64,000 nt of DNA from Dokdonia sp. 4H-3-7-5 (GTDB lineage Bacteria > Bacteroidota > Bacteroidia > Flavobacteriales > Flavobacteriaceae), in the NCBI RefSeq assembly GCF_000212355.1, contig NC_015496.1, positions 372,001 through 436,000 on the forward strand, in the 5' to 3' direction. The notes under the pieces were generated by a model. That model searched no databases and was not told the origin of the DNA. It worked only from the letters and a program-made list of their open reading frames with translations. Positions 26,629 through 30,420 of the stretch are shown here, piece after piece (the first letter of the stretch is position 1; each line of letters starts with the position of its first letter). The position numbers and the translations under genes are program-made.

Positions 26629-26934
26629 ATGGGAAGACCAACAAAAACAGAACGTTTAAAAGAAGCCAGACCAATTATTATGCAATCAACCCTAATTTTT
26701 TGCAAACTGAATTTACAAAAGATCTACGCCCGTAGTCGTCGTCTAGAACTTACCCACTGGAATGAGGATCAAGACTACGCAGATTATATCAACAACCTAT
26801 GGACAACAATGATGAAGCACGATGCTATCAAAAAAGATGCTTTAAAGCTTGACGAAATGTTAGGAACAGGAGACGTTGTGCAATTACTAAGTGATATTGT
26901 CATGGAGCATAGAAAATCAAGTAACATTCAATAA
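26629..26934 (+). CDS. Small hypothetical protein
   Basis: I do not recognise this 101-residue protein. It starts MGRPTKTERLKEARP, a basic N-terminus seen in small DNA- or RNA-associated proteins, and is predicted mostly helical (IMQSTLIFCKLNLQKIYARSRRLEL; YADYINNLWTTMMKHDAIKKDALKLDEML). It has no signal peptide or membrane helix. The 3' end overlaps pxpC tail to tail by 18 bases. Codon use and the ATG start look normal for the window, so I think it is real. It could be monocistronic or follow the aldehyde dehydrogenase, which ends about 100 bases upstream. Confidence 0.6.
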   Translation: MGRPTKTERLKEARPIIMQSTLIFCKLNLQKIYARSRRLELTHWNEDQDYADYINNLWTTMMKHDAIKKDALKLDEMLGTGDVVQLLSDIVMEHRKSSNIQ

Positions 26935-27780
26935 AAACTGACTACCCTGTTGCATTTGCGCCAGTTTATTAAGATCACTAGCGACTACTTGTAGTACTCT
27001 AGGATATCCTCCTGTAGTCTGACAGTCATTCATTAAAAAAATTAATTTACCAGAGGGTGTAAGCTGTACTGTTCCTGGTATAACGGGACTTGTATATATA
27101 CCTTTTAGCGTGTTTGGTAAAGGCTCAACAAGTTGTATTGCCATCCTATTCCATAAGTTTGAAACCGTAAATACATGATCACTTAATTGTTGTTGCTGGT
27201 TGTAAGTGAGCTTTGAAAACTCAGGCCCCTGATAAACTTTAATAGTAACTACAGATGAATGTATTACCCCAGATTGTGATTGCATCTTGAGATGTGCACC
27301 TTTTGATTTGCCATATTTCGAGATACCTAAAGGTAGCTCCATCCCTACGGTGAGCTTTCCTTCTGGTGTAAGTGGGTAATACCAGCTTTTACTACCAAGT
27401 ATTGTTTGAGAATCTAGTCCTCCTGCAAAAGCGAGATAGCTTCTAGATCCTCCGTTTATTTTAGACATTTTTAATACTTGTTTGGCTTTCGCCAAAACAG
27501 GAACGCCTTCCATTACCTGAGCCCCATCTAGCGTAGCTCCTGCATTGCTACCAGTAATTACAAAGTTGACATCATGATTGAATACTATAGTAGGCCCCAG
27601 CAAAGTACACTCTAGCATTGCTGCATGAGGTATATTATTGAGAATAGCATTTGCAATCATAAAAGCATGTTTATCCATAGCACCACTTTGTGGAACTCCT
27701 AGATGCGCGTAACCTTCTCTACCATTATCTTGGACAGTTGTATAAAATCCCGGGTGCAGTATGGAAATAGAAGGTTTCAT
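26917..27780 (-). CDS. pxpC: 5-oxoprolinase subunit C (KipA/biotin-dependent carboxyltransferase family)
   Basis: The protein has 287 residues. It begins ISILHPGFYTTVQDNGREGYAHLGVPQSGAMDKHAFMIAN, the hallmark of the AHS2/KipA/PxpC family, and continues with LAFAGGLDS and the late TTGGYPRVLQVVASDL motif. PxpABC cleaves 5-oxoproline (pyroglutamate) to glutamate with ATP. The gene overlaps pxpB by 4 bases (ATGA) and ends the operon. A decayed palindrome-like sequence (about 27482-27497) encodes LAKAKQ. Confidence 0.92.
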   Translation of the reverse strand: MKPSISILHPGFYTTVQDNGREGYAHLGVPQSGAMDKHAFMIANAILNNIPHAAMLECTLLGPTIVFNHDVNFVITGSNAGATLDGAQVMEGVPVLAKAKQVLKMSKINGGSRSYLAFAGGLDSQTILGSKSWYYPLTPEGKLTVGMELPLGISKYGKSKGAHLKMQSQSGVIHSSVVTIKVYQGPEFSKLTYNQQQQLSDHVFTVSNLWNRMAIQLVEPLPNTLKGIYTSPVIPGTVQLTPSGKLIFLMNDCQTTGGYPRVLQVVASDLNKLAQMQQGSQFLLNVT

Positions 27781-28469
27781 AAATTATTAGACATTGCTAT
27801 CTTCTCAAAATCAGCCTCATTAATGGCATAAAATTTAATTATATCGCCTGCCTTGAACAGACCAGGTGTTGCTTTTGTTGCGTCAAATAACAAAATAGGA
27901 GTTCTGCCAATGACATGCCAGCCACCAGGACTATCTTGAGGATAAATACCAGTTTGAGTTCCTCCGATGGCAACACTTCCTTTTGCTATTGAGCGCGAGG
28001 GAACGGATTTTCTGTCAAGATGTAATCTATCATCGAGATTTTCTAAATATGGAAAACCGGGTAAAAACCCTAAGAAGTAAATGGGATACTCTCTACTTGT
28101 ATGAATTTCTATAATTTCAGGTATTGTACATTTCACTTGGCTTGCATACTCCTTTAAATCCGGAGCAAACCTATTACTATAACAAACAGGGATTTTATAT
28201 AATACACTATTATAATCACTGTTTAACACCGGAATATTGAGCACCGTAGAGATTTGATGAACTAAAGCGTCTATGCTAGTATCCTTAGATATACATTTCT
28301 TTACTAGAAGCTCATTATATGTATGCACTAGCTCAACATTAAGAAGCTTTGATAGAGTCGCTTTTTTAATGAGCAGCCAATTCAAAAGATCCTGAGAAGG
28401 AGGACTTTCTATTTGAATTAATAACGAATAGTCTCCTAACCTACTAATATGAAAATTATACTGGCACAT
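27777..28469 (-). CDS. pxpB: 5-oxoprolinase subunit B (KipI/AHS1 family)
   Basis: The protein has 230 residues from ATG 28469. The in-frame stretch upstream to 28556 overlaps pxpA deeply and is not family-like, so I discard it. The chosen ATG shares its A with the pxpA TGA stop (TGATG), a coupling arrangement. AHS1 motifs are present: VKCTIPEIIEIHTSREYPIYFLGFLPGFPYLENLD and GSVAIGGTQTGIYPQDSPGGWHVIGRTP. With PxpA and PxpC it forms the ATP-dependent 5-oxoprolinase. Confidence 0.92.
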   Translation of the reverse strand: MCQYNFHISRLGDYSLLIQIESPPSQDLLNWLLIKKATLSKLLNVELVHTYNELLVKKCISKDTSIDALVHQISTVLNIPVLNSDYNSVLYKIPVCYSNRFAPDLKEYASQVKCTIPEIIEIHTSREYPIYFLGFLPGFPYLENLDDRLHLDRKSVPSRSIAKGSVAIGGTQTGIYPQDSPGGWHVIGRTPILLFDATKATPGLFKAGDIIKFYAINEADFEKIAMSNNL

Positions 28470-29200
28470 CACTTTATTAAAATATGCTCTTGAGCAAAAG
28501 CCTGGTGAATTTCTTTTACAATCTGTAATGCATTTTCTGTATCGCCGTGGACGCAAAGTGTATCTACGTCAAAAGGAAGTGTAAGATTGTTGATTGTTTT
28601 TAGTTGGCGCTTCTTTACCATTCGTAATACGTGAGGTAAGACTGCATTATGAGATGTTAATACCGCAGCTGGTGAACTACGAGATACTAGTGAGTAATCA
28701 TCATTATAATTTCTATCTGCAAAACCTTCTATGCTTATAGCTAGTTTTGAAACAGCTAGCGATGCGATTACAGAATTATGAGGTACGTAGAGCACAAGAC
28801 GGTCATCTATCTCAAGTATGGTATCTATAATGAGATGAGCTATTTCTTCATTTTTGGCAGCTTCGTTATATAACGCACCATGTGGTTTTACGTGATGTAC
28901 GTGTTGTCCACTTTTTGCTGCTAAACTAATAAGAAGTTTAATTTGAGAAGTTATTGACTCTTTTAAAAGTTCATAAGAAATAGTCATTGCCTCACGACCA
29001 AAATTCTTGCGATCCGGGTAACTGGGATGAGCACCAATTTTCACATTAGATATTTTCGCGAAAGCGAGAACTTCCAACATCGTTGCTGTATCTCCCGCAT
29101 GACCACCGCAAGCGATGTTACAAGAGCTCAAATACGGTATTAACTGAGCCTCGTTCCCTACACCTTCACCTACATCGCTATTGAGATCTATATGCATCAT
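28469..29200 (-). CDS. pxpA: 5-oxoprolinase subunit A (LamB/YcsF family)
   Basis: The protein has 243 residues from the ATG at 29200, which overlaps the transporter stop as ATGA; the next ATG (29197) is the alternative. Family motifs are DLNSDVGEG at the N-terminus, LSSCNIACGGHAGD, KIGAHPSYPDRKNFGR, VKPHGALYN and the late LCVHGDTENA. It supplies part of the active site of 5-oxoprolinase. A palindrome copy encodes LAFAKIS in the segment following ACGGHAGD. Confidence 0.94.
   Translation of the reverse strand: MMHIDLNSDVGEGVGNEAQLIPYLSSCNIACGGHAGDTATMLEVLAFAKISNVKIGAHPSYPDRKNFGREAMTISYELLKESITSQIKLLISLAAKSGQHVHHVKPHGALYNEAAKNEEIAHLIIDTILEIDDRLVLYVPHNSVIASLAVSKLAISIEGFADRNYNDDYSLVSRSSPAAVLTSHNAVLPHVLRMVKKRQLKTINNLTLPFDVDTLCVHGDTENALQIVKEIHQAFAQEHILIK
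29052..29067. repeat. Iterated palindrome copy 7 (in CDS)
   Basis: ATTTTCGCGAAAGCGA has an intact core but a changed left arm. In pxpA (minus strand) it is read as A-F-A-K. Confidence 0.8.
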
Positions 29201-30420
29201 AATAGTCCAAATACTTTTAAGATAGTGCGCGCACCTAGCACAAAAACAACTAACCAAATAACGATTGAAATTCCATTTTGAAGTGATGAGTTTACATAAT
29301 TACCTAGTACATCCCGTTTATTTACTATCCAGATTAAGTAACCAGCAATTATAGGTAATAAGACACCATTTGCTACTTGTGCAAACTGAATAATCTCTAC
29401 AGGGCTGTACCCTATAGATGAAAAAACAATGCCTAGTATAAGAATTGTAAGCCAGACTGCTCTAAACTTAGCTGATTTAAGATCTCGTTTCCACCCTAAA
29501 CAACCTTGCACAACATACGCCGCTGCAAGAGGTGCTGTAATAGCAGAGGTTAAGCCGGCTGCTCCTAATCCTAACCCAATAAAATACCTCGCATAATCTC
29601 CGAATAGAGGCTCTAGGCTTTGAGCAAGATCTGCTGCATTTTTTATCTCACTTCCCTGTATGGCTGCTGCACAAATGATGATTGCCATACTAACCAAACC
29701 TCCTAAAATTACTGCAACAATAGTATCACGACGTGCAGCTGGTAAATCTGACGCATTGCGCCACTTCTCACTAACTAATGAGGCATGTAAAAATAAATTA
29801 TAAGGAACTACGGTAGTACCTACCAGTGCAACTATAGTGAGTAAGCTACCATCTGGAAAAGATGGAATAAAACTACCTTTTAAAACAGCTAGTATATCTG
29901 GCTTTGTTACAAATGCCGTTGTTACAAAAGCTATACTCATGATAATAACAAGTGTGACCAGTATGCGCTCTAGCACTTTGTAATTTCCAACAAATAGGAT
30001 GATGCTAGCGAGGATTCCTAGCACTAAAGACCAACTATTAATATCCAAAGTACCCACGCTTAATGAGCTCGAAAAACCGAGTGCTTCTATACCTAGAACG
30101 CCTCCACTTATATTACCTGCCTCATATGCTGCATTGCCTATCGCTATAGCGCTAAGCATTAAGATAACGGCAAAAGTTTGTGTAATTTTATTTGATAATG
30201 AATCTCTTATAACGCCGGCTAATCCTTTACCAGATACAAGACCTATGCGAGCTGCCATTTCTTGCAACACTATGGTAGCTATAATGGATAATACCATAGC
30301 CCATAATAAAGTAAATCCATAGGCAACTCCTGTAATTGTACATACAGTGACTGTTCCCGGACCTATAAAGGCGGCAGCTACTAATACACCAGGACCTGAT
30401 AATTTGAATTTATTATTCAT
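29197..30420 (-). CDS. NRAMP-fold transporter lacking canonical metal-binding motifs
   Basis: The protein has 407 residues from ATG 30420; the TTG nine bases upstream is unnecessary. The LeuT/NRAMP fold is clear (about 11 membrane helices, SGPGVLVAAAFIGPGTVTV in helix 1, VPYNLFLHASLVSEKWR in helix 6). The metal-binding DPGN of helix 1 is G20-P-G-T23 here, and the MPH of helix 6 is V205-P-Y207. So the Asp, Asn and Met that bind Mn/Fe in canonical NRAMPs are absent. The gene is translationally coupled (ATGA) to pxpA. Bacillus subtilis has an NRAMP-family gene, ycsG, in its pxpA/kip locus. I infer an organic substrate, most simply 5-oxoproline, or a cation needed by the enzyme. General annotation pipelines would call it a divalent-metal transporter. 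Confidence 0.82.
   Translation of the reverse strand: MNNKFKLSGPGVLVAAAFIGPGTVTVCTITGVAYGFTLLWAMVLSIIATIVLQEMAARIGLVSGKGLAGVIRDSLSNKITQTFAVILMLSAIAIGNAAYEAGNISGGVLGIEALGFSSSLSVGTLDINSWSLVLGILASIILFVGNYKVLERILVTLVIIMSIAFVTTAFVTKPDILAVLKGSFIPSFPDGSLLTIVALVGTTVVPYNLFLHASLVSEKWRNASDLPAARRDTIVAVILGGLVSMAIIICAAAIQGSEIKNAADLAQSLEPLFGDYARYFIGLGLGAAGLTSAITAPLAAAYVVQGCLGWKRDLKSAKFRAVWLTILILGIVFSSIGYSPVEIIQFAQVANGVLLPIIAGYLIWIVNKRDVLGNYVNSSLQNGISIVIWLVVFVLGARTILKVFGLL

Follow-up and report, generated by a model that had tools for sequence, protein, structure and literature searches.

A predicted 5-oxoproline importer of the Nramp family, without metal ligands, encoded ahead of 5-oxoprolinase in Dokdonia sp. 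4H-3-7-5

What does an Nramp-family transporter carry once the residues that bind its metal ion have been replaced? The question is raised by a gene of Dokdonia sp. 4H-3-7-5 (Flavobacteriaceae), found in a 64,000-nucleotide stretch (NC_015496.1, positions 372,001 to 436,000 of the forward strand; hereafter the window), where it stands directly ahead of pxpA, pxpB, and pxpC, the genes assigned to the three subunits of 5-oxoprolinase. An initial annotation of the window had described GPGT instead of DPGN in transmembrane helix 1 (TM1) and VPY instead of MPH in TM6, with loss of the Asp, Asn, and Met ligands of metal-transporting NRAMPs, and had proposed that the protein imports pyroglutamate (5-oxoproline) or a related amino acid. 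We confirmed both replacements from the DNA and by alignment to solved NRAMPs. From comparisons of sequences and gene neighborhoods, we consider it very probable that the protein is a secondary carrier whose site no longer holds metal and which imports 5-oxo-L-proline for PxpABC.

We first consider the substrate site. Aligned to solved NRAMPs, the Dokdonia protein has GPGT opposite DPGN and VVPYN opposite VMPHV or VMPHN. Our set of sequences with this site, the GPGT subgroup, comprised 91 members (the window's protein, L001 to L006, eight plasmid loci, and 76 genes from the Bacteroidota survey below), leaving out the truncated L017, the duplicate short loci L049 to L077, and L007 and L048, which are the window's own gene. 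Residues G20, P21, G22, G201, T202, T203, V205, Y207, and N208 were invariant in all 91; position 23 was Thr in 89 and Ser in 2, and P206 was present in 74. The subgroup signature is GPGT...GTT[VI]VxYN. All 32 canonical NRAMP sequences used for comparison had D, P, G, and N in TM1 as well as A202, M205, and H207, and 31 of the 32 had T203 and N208. The ligand loss claimed for the Dokdonia protein thus extends to the whole subgroup: Asp, Asn, and Met are missing in 91 of 91 sequences, with a fixed set of other residues in their place, a pattern suggestive of selection for a different ligand and not of decay. In TM3, too, the subgroup departs from the canonical sequences, with E100 in 83 and N103 in all 91 members; the register there is uncertain, since N103 faces the canonical Glu in our alignment, and E100 takes that place by spacing and by the mutation names of Cellier (see below).

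We then surveyed 395 Bacteroidota genomes with the Dokdonia protein (E up to 1e-40), PxpA (PF03746), and HyuB (PF02538), the last two standing for two enzyme families without homology to each other, both acting to open the ring of 5-oxoproline or of cyclic amides related to it. The transporter search matched 83 genomes; removing five with the NRMT motif (G078, G097, G156, G160, and G267) and one with FGPGS (G162) left 77 with a GPGT-type gene, 43 of them near the Dokdonia protein (at least 43% identity) and 34 far (33 to 41%). Two PF03746 matches below the curated cut-off, in G106 and G370, were excluded from the co-occurrence count. Every one of the 77 genomes encoded one of the two enzymes, PxpA in 48 and HyuB in 29, and none encoded both; among the near genomes, PxpA was found in 42 of 43, with G282 as the exception. 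Either enzyme was also found in 53 of the 318 genomes lacking the transporter, but none of the 395 genomes had the transporter and no enzyme. The association (Fisher test, 5e-47, a value uncorrected for kinship among the genomes and inflated by it) spans 37 genera in 12 families.

Gene neighborhoods point the same way. Besides the window's own locus, we opened 76 Bacteroidota members with flanks of about 6 kb on both sides, shorter where a contig ended. All three pxp genes lay within 6 kb in 37 of the 43 near members (window included), always on one strand in the order transporter-pxpA-pxpB-pxpC, with at most 60 bases between matches in 32 of the 37. The exceptional G282 has a joined HyuA-HyuB protein encoded near the transporter on the opposite strand, and its draft genome gave no PxpA match. 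Far members instead had hyuA and hyuB (16 of 34), hyuB alone (2), or pxpA (1) within 6 kb; in the 16 loci with both hyu genes, these shared the transporter's strand, lying downstream of it in 6 loci and upstream in the other 10. Single frames of some 1250 to 1370 codons contain many of the Bacteroidota hyuB matches, and in three loci that we checked, one open reading frame (ORF) covers the length of both Hyu domains. On plasmids, we opened 7 of 24 homologues with more than 42% identity, plus a more distant one from Qipengyuania; in 5 of the 7 (Haloferax mediterranei, H. gibbonsii, Haladaptatus, Haloarcula, and Halocatena), hyuA-hyuB directly follows the transporter. As a control, none of 40 loci of NRAMPs that keep DPGN and MPH (40/40) had a pxp or hyu match (E 1e-4) within about 6 kb on each side, two of these stretches (L193 and L196) being shortened on one side by a contig end.

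In the window itself, the transporter, pxpA, pxpB, and pxpC form a four-gene operon on the minus strand, each neighbor overlapping the next by 1 to 4 bases (Table 1). The transporter ORF, listed from an upstream TTG as 410 amino acids, has 407 when read from its ATG; it matches Pfam Nramp (PF01566) with 302 bits against a gathering cut-off of 29.8, and the nearest named protein match, from an uncultured Dokdonia, is 98% identical. Its ATGA overlap with pxpA, reported in the initial annotation, holds if pxpA starts at ATG 29200 (the transporter's TGA stop is at 29199-29197), while the alternative ATG at 29197 gives a 1-nt TGATG junction instead. The successive coupling of the three pxp genes, also reported there, is borne out by TGATG at 28471-28467 and ATGA at 27780-27777, with the pxpB start corrected to 28469. 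PxpA matches Pfam LamB_YcsF (265.8 bits) and the NCBIfam PxpA subfamily (251.6 bits; cut-off, 226), PxpB matches TIGR00370 (154.1 bits; cut-off, 145.55), and PxpC matches Pfam CT_A_B (216.5 bits). An Rfam search found nothing above gathering score in the window.

Table 1. Features of the transporter-pxpABC operon, in window positions
Feature	Position	Strand	Basis or remark
Nramp-related transporter of the GPGT subgroup (407 aa), a proposed importer of 5-oxoproline	29197..30420	minus	ATG at 30420; Pfam match
TM1 motif GPGT, residues 20-23, replacing DPGN	30352..30363	minus	DNA reading
TM6 motif GTTVVPYN, residues 201-208, replacing GATVMPHN	29797..29820	minus	DNA reading
VPY, residues 205-207	29800-29808	minus	DNA reading
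ATGA overlap, transporter stop and pxpA start	29197..29200	minus	DNA reading
pxpA, 5-oxoprolinase subunit A	28469..29200	minus	start 29200 or 29197
pxpB, 5-oxoprolinase subunit B	27777..28469	minus	start at 28469 read from DNA
pxpC, 5-oxoprolinase subunit C	26917..27780	minus	Pfam CT_A_B

What stands beside pxpA when the GPGT type is absent? The survey held 25 such genomes, whose pxpA loci we opened as a first 20 and then the remaining 5. In 11 of the first 20, an Nramp-related protein of another type lay near pxpA; these 11 are 45 to 59% identical to a protein encoded beside pxpA on a Bacillus badius plasmid (L209), and 22 to 27% identical to the Dokdonia transporter where BLAST aligned the two (9 of 11). 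Searching with the B. badius protein, we found this GPGF type in 16 genomes of the survey's 395, always in the absence of the GPGT type; 15 have PxpA and the remaining one, G190, has HyuB. The GPGF-type gene is within about 3 kb of pxpA in 14 genomes, and one match (G292) contains an in-frame stop. In total, a GPGF-type NRAMP is present in 15 of the 25 genomes, and an MFS-type gene stands by pxpA in 4 of the remaining 10. These four MFS-type ORFs (L229, L233, L236, and L251, with no NRAMP at the locus; L233 and L251 were tested against Pfam) are candidates for a third type of 5-oxoproline carrier. Thus, more than one kind of protein occupies the operon's transporter slot, just as the GPGT transporter has more than one kind of partner enzyme, and the simplest substrate common to these arrangements is 5-oxoproline.

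The GPGF type connects the Dokdonia operon to published genetics. A pxpT deletion in Corynebacterium glutamicum is reported to abolish growth on 5-oxoproline but leave growth on glucose possible, and plasmid-borne pxpT by itself to restore the lost growth (PMC13274462, 2026). PxpT (Cg1142) is described there as an NRAMP-family protein 50% identical to Bacillus subtilis YcsG, and the same paper cites Niehaus (2017) for a requirement for ycsG in B. subtilis. We placed YcsG and PxpT in the GPGF type through their published mutual identities and the B. badius homologue, not through their own sequences. They share with the Dokdonia transporter the PF01566 type, a gene beside pxpABC, and a proposed role in 5-oxoproline import, and in the seven plasmid proteins of the type, TM1 likewise keeps G-P-G and a Tyr replaces the His of TM6. 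The type differs in having GPGF in TM1 and GGTVGGY, and the Dokdonia protein is only about 24% identical to the four plasmid GPGF proteins compared (L198, L200, L203, and L205); the seven GPGF proteins form a separate branch (100/100) without it. The initial annotation had drawn a parallel to ycsG: the placement of an NRAMP-family gene beside pxp genes stands, and the B. subtilis protein falls in the other subgroup.

Several observations weigh against import of 5-oxoproline. PxpA or HyuB also occurs in 53 of the 318 genomes without the GPGT subgroup, and related genomes are not independent trials. Neither enzyme is within 6 kb in 5 of the 43 near members (all five have pxpABC elsewhere in the genome), in 15 of the 34 far members, or near 3 of the 8 plasmid members (Pseudoalteromonas, Natrononativus, and Qipengyuania); a weak hyuA-like match (26%, 94 bits) turned up at L154, one of four loci of the NRMT type, and the window's PxpC scores 174.5 bits, below the NCBIfam PxpC equivalog cut-off of 500. 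The published record adds to this list. Overexpression of ycsG raised cell Mn in B. subtilis, YcsG was renamed MntG, and an mntH mntA ycsG triple mutant could be obtained only with an extra copy of ycsG (PMC10448178, 2023); the PxpT authors, for their part, do not exclude divalent metal transport (PMC13274462). As claimed for YcsG, whose operon promoter is bound by MntR (PMC10448178), the Dokdonia protein might import Mn2+ or another divalent metal, which would then feed nitrogen-linked metabolism. It passes the general NCBIfam Nramp_1 model ("divalent metal transporter"; 106.8 bits against 50), and a search of the Dokdonia genome (3.39 Mb, single contig) found no NRAMP with DPGN and MPH, so the organism may lack another Mn carrier of this family. 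Yet the three ligands are absent from all 91 subgroup sequences, none of the 40 ligand-keeping NRAMPs had the enzymes nearby, and the protein falls below the NCBIfam MntH (164.2 against 430 bits) and nramp (100.8 against 272.5) cut-offs. According to the authors of the Mn study, what losing ycsG does to 5-oxoproline use might be a polar effect (PMC10448178), an objection that the plasmid complementation in C. glutamicum meets for PxpT, which was moreover required on 5-oxoproline and not on glucose. The Mn claim contradicts a 5-oxoproline reading for YcsG/PxpT, which is the other subgroup, and we regard metal import by the Dokdonia protein as very improbable.

Three HyuA/HyuB proteins or protein pairs encoded near subgroup members matched N-methylhydantoinase, 5-oxoprolinase, and caprolactamase entries, with 7hk5 and 6yra as best solved structures, and the tested proteins passed no curated NCBIfam cut-off. 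Their superfamily spans hydantoin and caprolactam hydrolases and ketone carboxylases as well, which counts against our reading in that the hyu association alone does not name 5-oxoproline. What the transporter imports could be a hydantoin, a pyroglutamyl compound, or a lactam other than 5-oxoproline, all of them related small cyclic amides; 5-oxoproline would then be one substrate among several or not the principal one. Two of the five haloarchaeal loci fit this alternative in carrying an Asp/Glu racemase family gene: in Haladaptatus it follows hyuAB (L010:10892-11626; annotated as Asp/Glu racemase family, with arylmalonate decarboxylase as best Pfam match), and Halocatena (L211) has one likewise. 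Against it, PxpABC is a 5-oxoprolinase, by its family names and PMC13274462, and PxpA accompanies the subgroup in 48 of the 77 genomes; 5-oxoproline is also the simplest substrate common to both enzyme contexts. We judge a different cyclic amide to be unlikely. The direction of transport could also be reversed, with an outward or two-way carrier protecting the cell from 5-oxoproline formed internally; the compound is stated to arise spontaneously from glutamate and glutamine (PMC13274462), and the title of a Clostridioides difficile paper mentions detoxification by Pxp. An enzyme that degrades the compound would make a neighboring exporter redundant, however, and PxpT is reported to be essential for growth on external 5-oxoproline (PMC13274462), leaving export with next to no weight in our assessment.

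Taken together, the indirect tests make 5-oxoproline, or a lactam much like it, a better candidate than a metal, and from them we infer 5-oxoproline as the substrate and inward as the direction. The import proposed in the initial annotation is thus backed by the residues, the co-occurrence, the linkage, and the published C. glutamicum pxpT genetics. By homology, the Dokdonia transporter should have the LeuT fold. In LeuT-fold carriers, TM1 and TM6 are broken midway and expose backbone amides that bind substrate; in the amino acid carriers of this superfamily, the carboxylate is held at the Gly-rich TM1 break. GPGT would clear the TM1 site of the metal-binding Asp and Asn, leaving the free backbone amides of the unwound stretch to hold the substrate, with carboxylate and lactam gripped as in the amino acid carriers. 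Thr, Tyr, and Asn of TM6 and Asn351 of TM10 could meet the lactam in the binding pose that we envisage. 5-Oxo-L-proline would thus enter the cell through the GPGT transporter, PxpABC from the next three overlapping genes would open the lactam with ATP to yield glutamate, and the glutamate would supply carbon and nitrogen. A structure model built from seven sequences (the window and L001 to L006) reached a mean predicted local distance difference test (pLDDT) score of 48, too poor to use, and we did not use it.

How does the GPGT subgroup relate to the described members of the family? With canonical MntH, NRAMP, and DMT1, the Dokdonia protein shares the family and, by homology, the fold; the D, N, M, and H of the metal/proton site are G, T, V, and Y, so that the Slc11/MntH motifs DPGN and MPH read GPGT and VPY. 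The NRMT Mg transporters (EleNRMT; PMC8806188) include the nearest solved structure by sequence (7qia, E 4e-39) and likewise depart from the canonical metal site. NRMTs are described as keeping the TM1 Asp (DxxG...TxxA/T), whereas this position is Gly in 91 of 91 GPGT sequences (G20 in Dokdonia), and NRMT-type sequences (DAGG; TT[IV]APW) form their own branch. Cellier divides PF01566 into the metal family, the NRMTs, and an outgroup closest to the metal family, called "orphan" in PMC10606218 (PMC9606685, PMC10606218). All ten orphan residues readable from mutation names in the text occur in the Dokdonia protein: G20 and T23 in TM1, Y99 and N103 in TM3, T202, V205, and Y207 in TM6, and A347, N351, and G352 in TM10. 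This comparison covers sites in TM1, TM3, TM6, and TM10 and not those in TM7 and TM11, and the TM3 pair matches by spacing, our own alignment putting those two residues differently. Judged from these residues, the GPGT subgroup appears to correspond to this orphan outgroup of Slc11. The available text of the two papers attributes no function to the orphan group. A preprint describes Nramp-related proteins without metal motifs, among them a "G-motif 3" group that holds MntG, and calls the other Nramp-related groups, NRMT-like proteins apart, entirely uncharacterized (PMC12873925). In the open-licence literature, we found no paper linking a GPGT-type NRAMP with 5-oxoprolinase or hydantoinase.

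The initial annotation had named a phylogeny of pxp-linked NRAMPs as a check, and our unrooted trees answer it in part. In a 59-row tree, the GPGT type is one side of a branch (95/94), and the GPGF, NRMT, and metal types each have their own branch. A 38-row tree, from which the two longest rows were left out, puts GPGT and GPGF together opposite the NRMT and metal types (97/96); there, GPGT is one side of a branch in just 8% of bootstrap trees, and its base is open. By approximately unbiased (AU) tests, GPGT as a single clade was not rejected (p 0.15), and neither was a grouping of its pxp-linked rows with GPGF (p 0.43). Because the trees conflict and the AU tests reject neither arrangement, we do not claim two independent recruitments of the pxp-linked types, and a single origin is neither shown nor rejected.

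Other variants of the family, and other genes around pxp loci, were met along the way. The Dokdonia genome has a single other PF01566 match (L008:1417-2652, at G000:C1 about 2038921-2040156; 46.8 bits), with GVSH in TM1 and PAPL in TM6. Within the GPGT subgroup, a subclade from 11 genomes (L120 to L127 and L129 to L131) has TT[VI]V[TA]YN in TM6; HyuB occurs in 10 of these genomes and PxpA in one, neither within 6 kb of the transporter, and 8 of the 11 loci have nearby ORFs that cluster with proteins of the thiamine-diphosphate/2-oxoacid:ferredoxin-oxidoreductase type (two ORFs tested against Pfam). At plasmid loci L198, L205, and L214, biotin carboxylase and a "putative hydro-lyase" accompany the GPGF-type NRAMP and the pxpA-like genes, joined at L198 and L205 by a biotin/lipoyl-containing protein; such loci may be something other than simple 5-oxoprolinase operons. 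On a Klebsiella plasmid (L201), pxpBCA is followed by DUF969, DUF979, and pyroglutamyl-peptidase I, making the DUF969 and DUF979 proteins a candidate for another transporter tied to pyroglutamate. A Neorhizobium plasmid (L015:4813-7200) encodes an FGPGN Nramp-related protein, perhaps of another non-metal group, adjoining an enzyme of the dihydrodipicolinate synthase family. A similar protein with FGPGS is found in G162 (L216); a dihydrodipicolinate synthase family gene considered near it was rejected, as the ORF tested there had no Pfam family.

Import of 5-oxoproline by an NRAMP-family protein is partly anticipated by the PxpT and YcsG work. New here are a distinct subgroup, the finding that all 77 sampled genomes carrying it also encode a lactam-opening enzyme from one or the other of two unrelated families, and the subgroup's agreement with the orphan outgroup. 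The proposal offers a substrate for a group recorded as "Nramp family divalent metal transporter," the label on all 24 of the closest plasmid matches (23 haloarchaeal and one from Pseudoalteromonas), and it bears on the dispute between Mn and 5-oxoproline over YcsG. A bolder and distinctly doubtful reading is that the GPGT subgroup, as the orphan nearest relative of the metal NRAMPs, shows together with the YcsG/PxpT type that PF01566 began as 5-oxoproline carriers. If true, NRAMP metal transport would be a derived invention, with Asp, Asn, and Met put into a former lactam/carboxylate site. A 5-oxoproline carrier in this position would give an outgroup of known chemistry for the evolution of metal selectivity in the NRAMPs.

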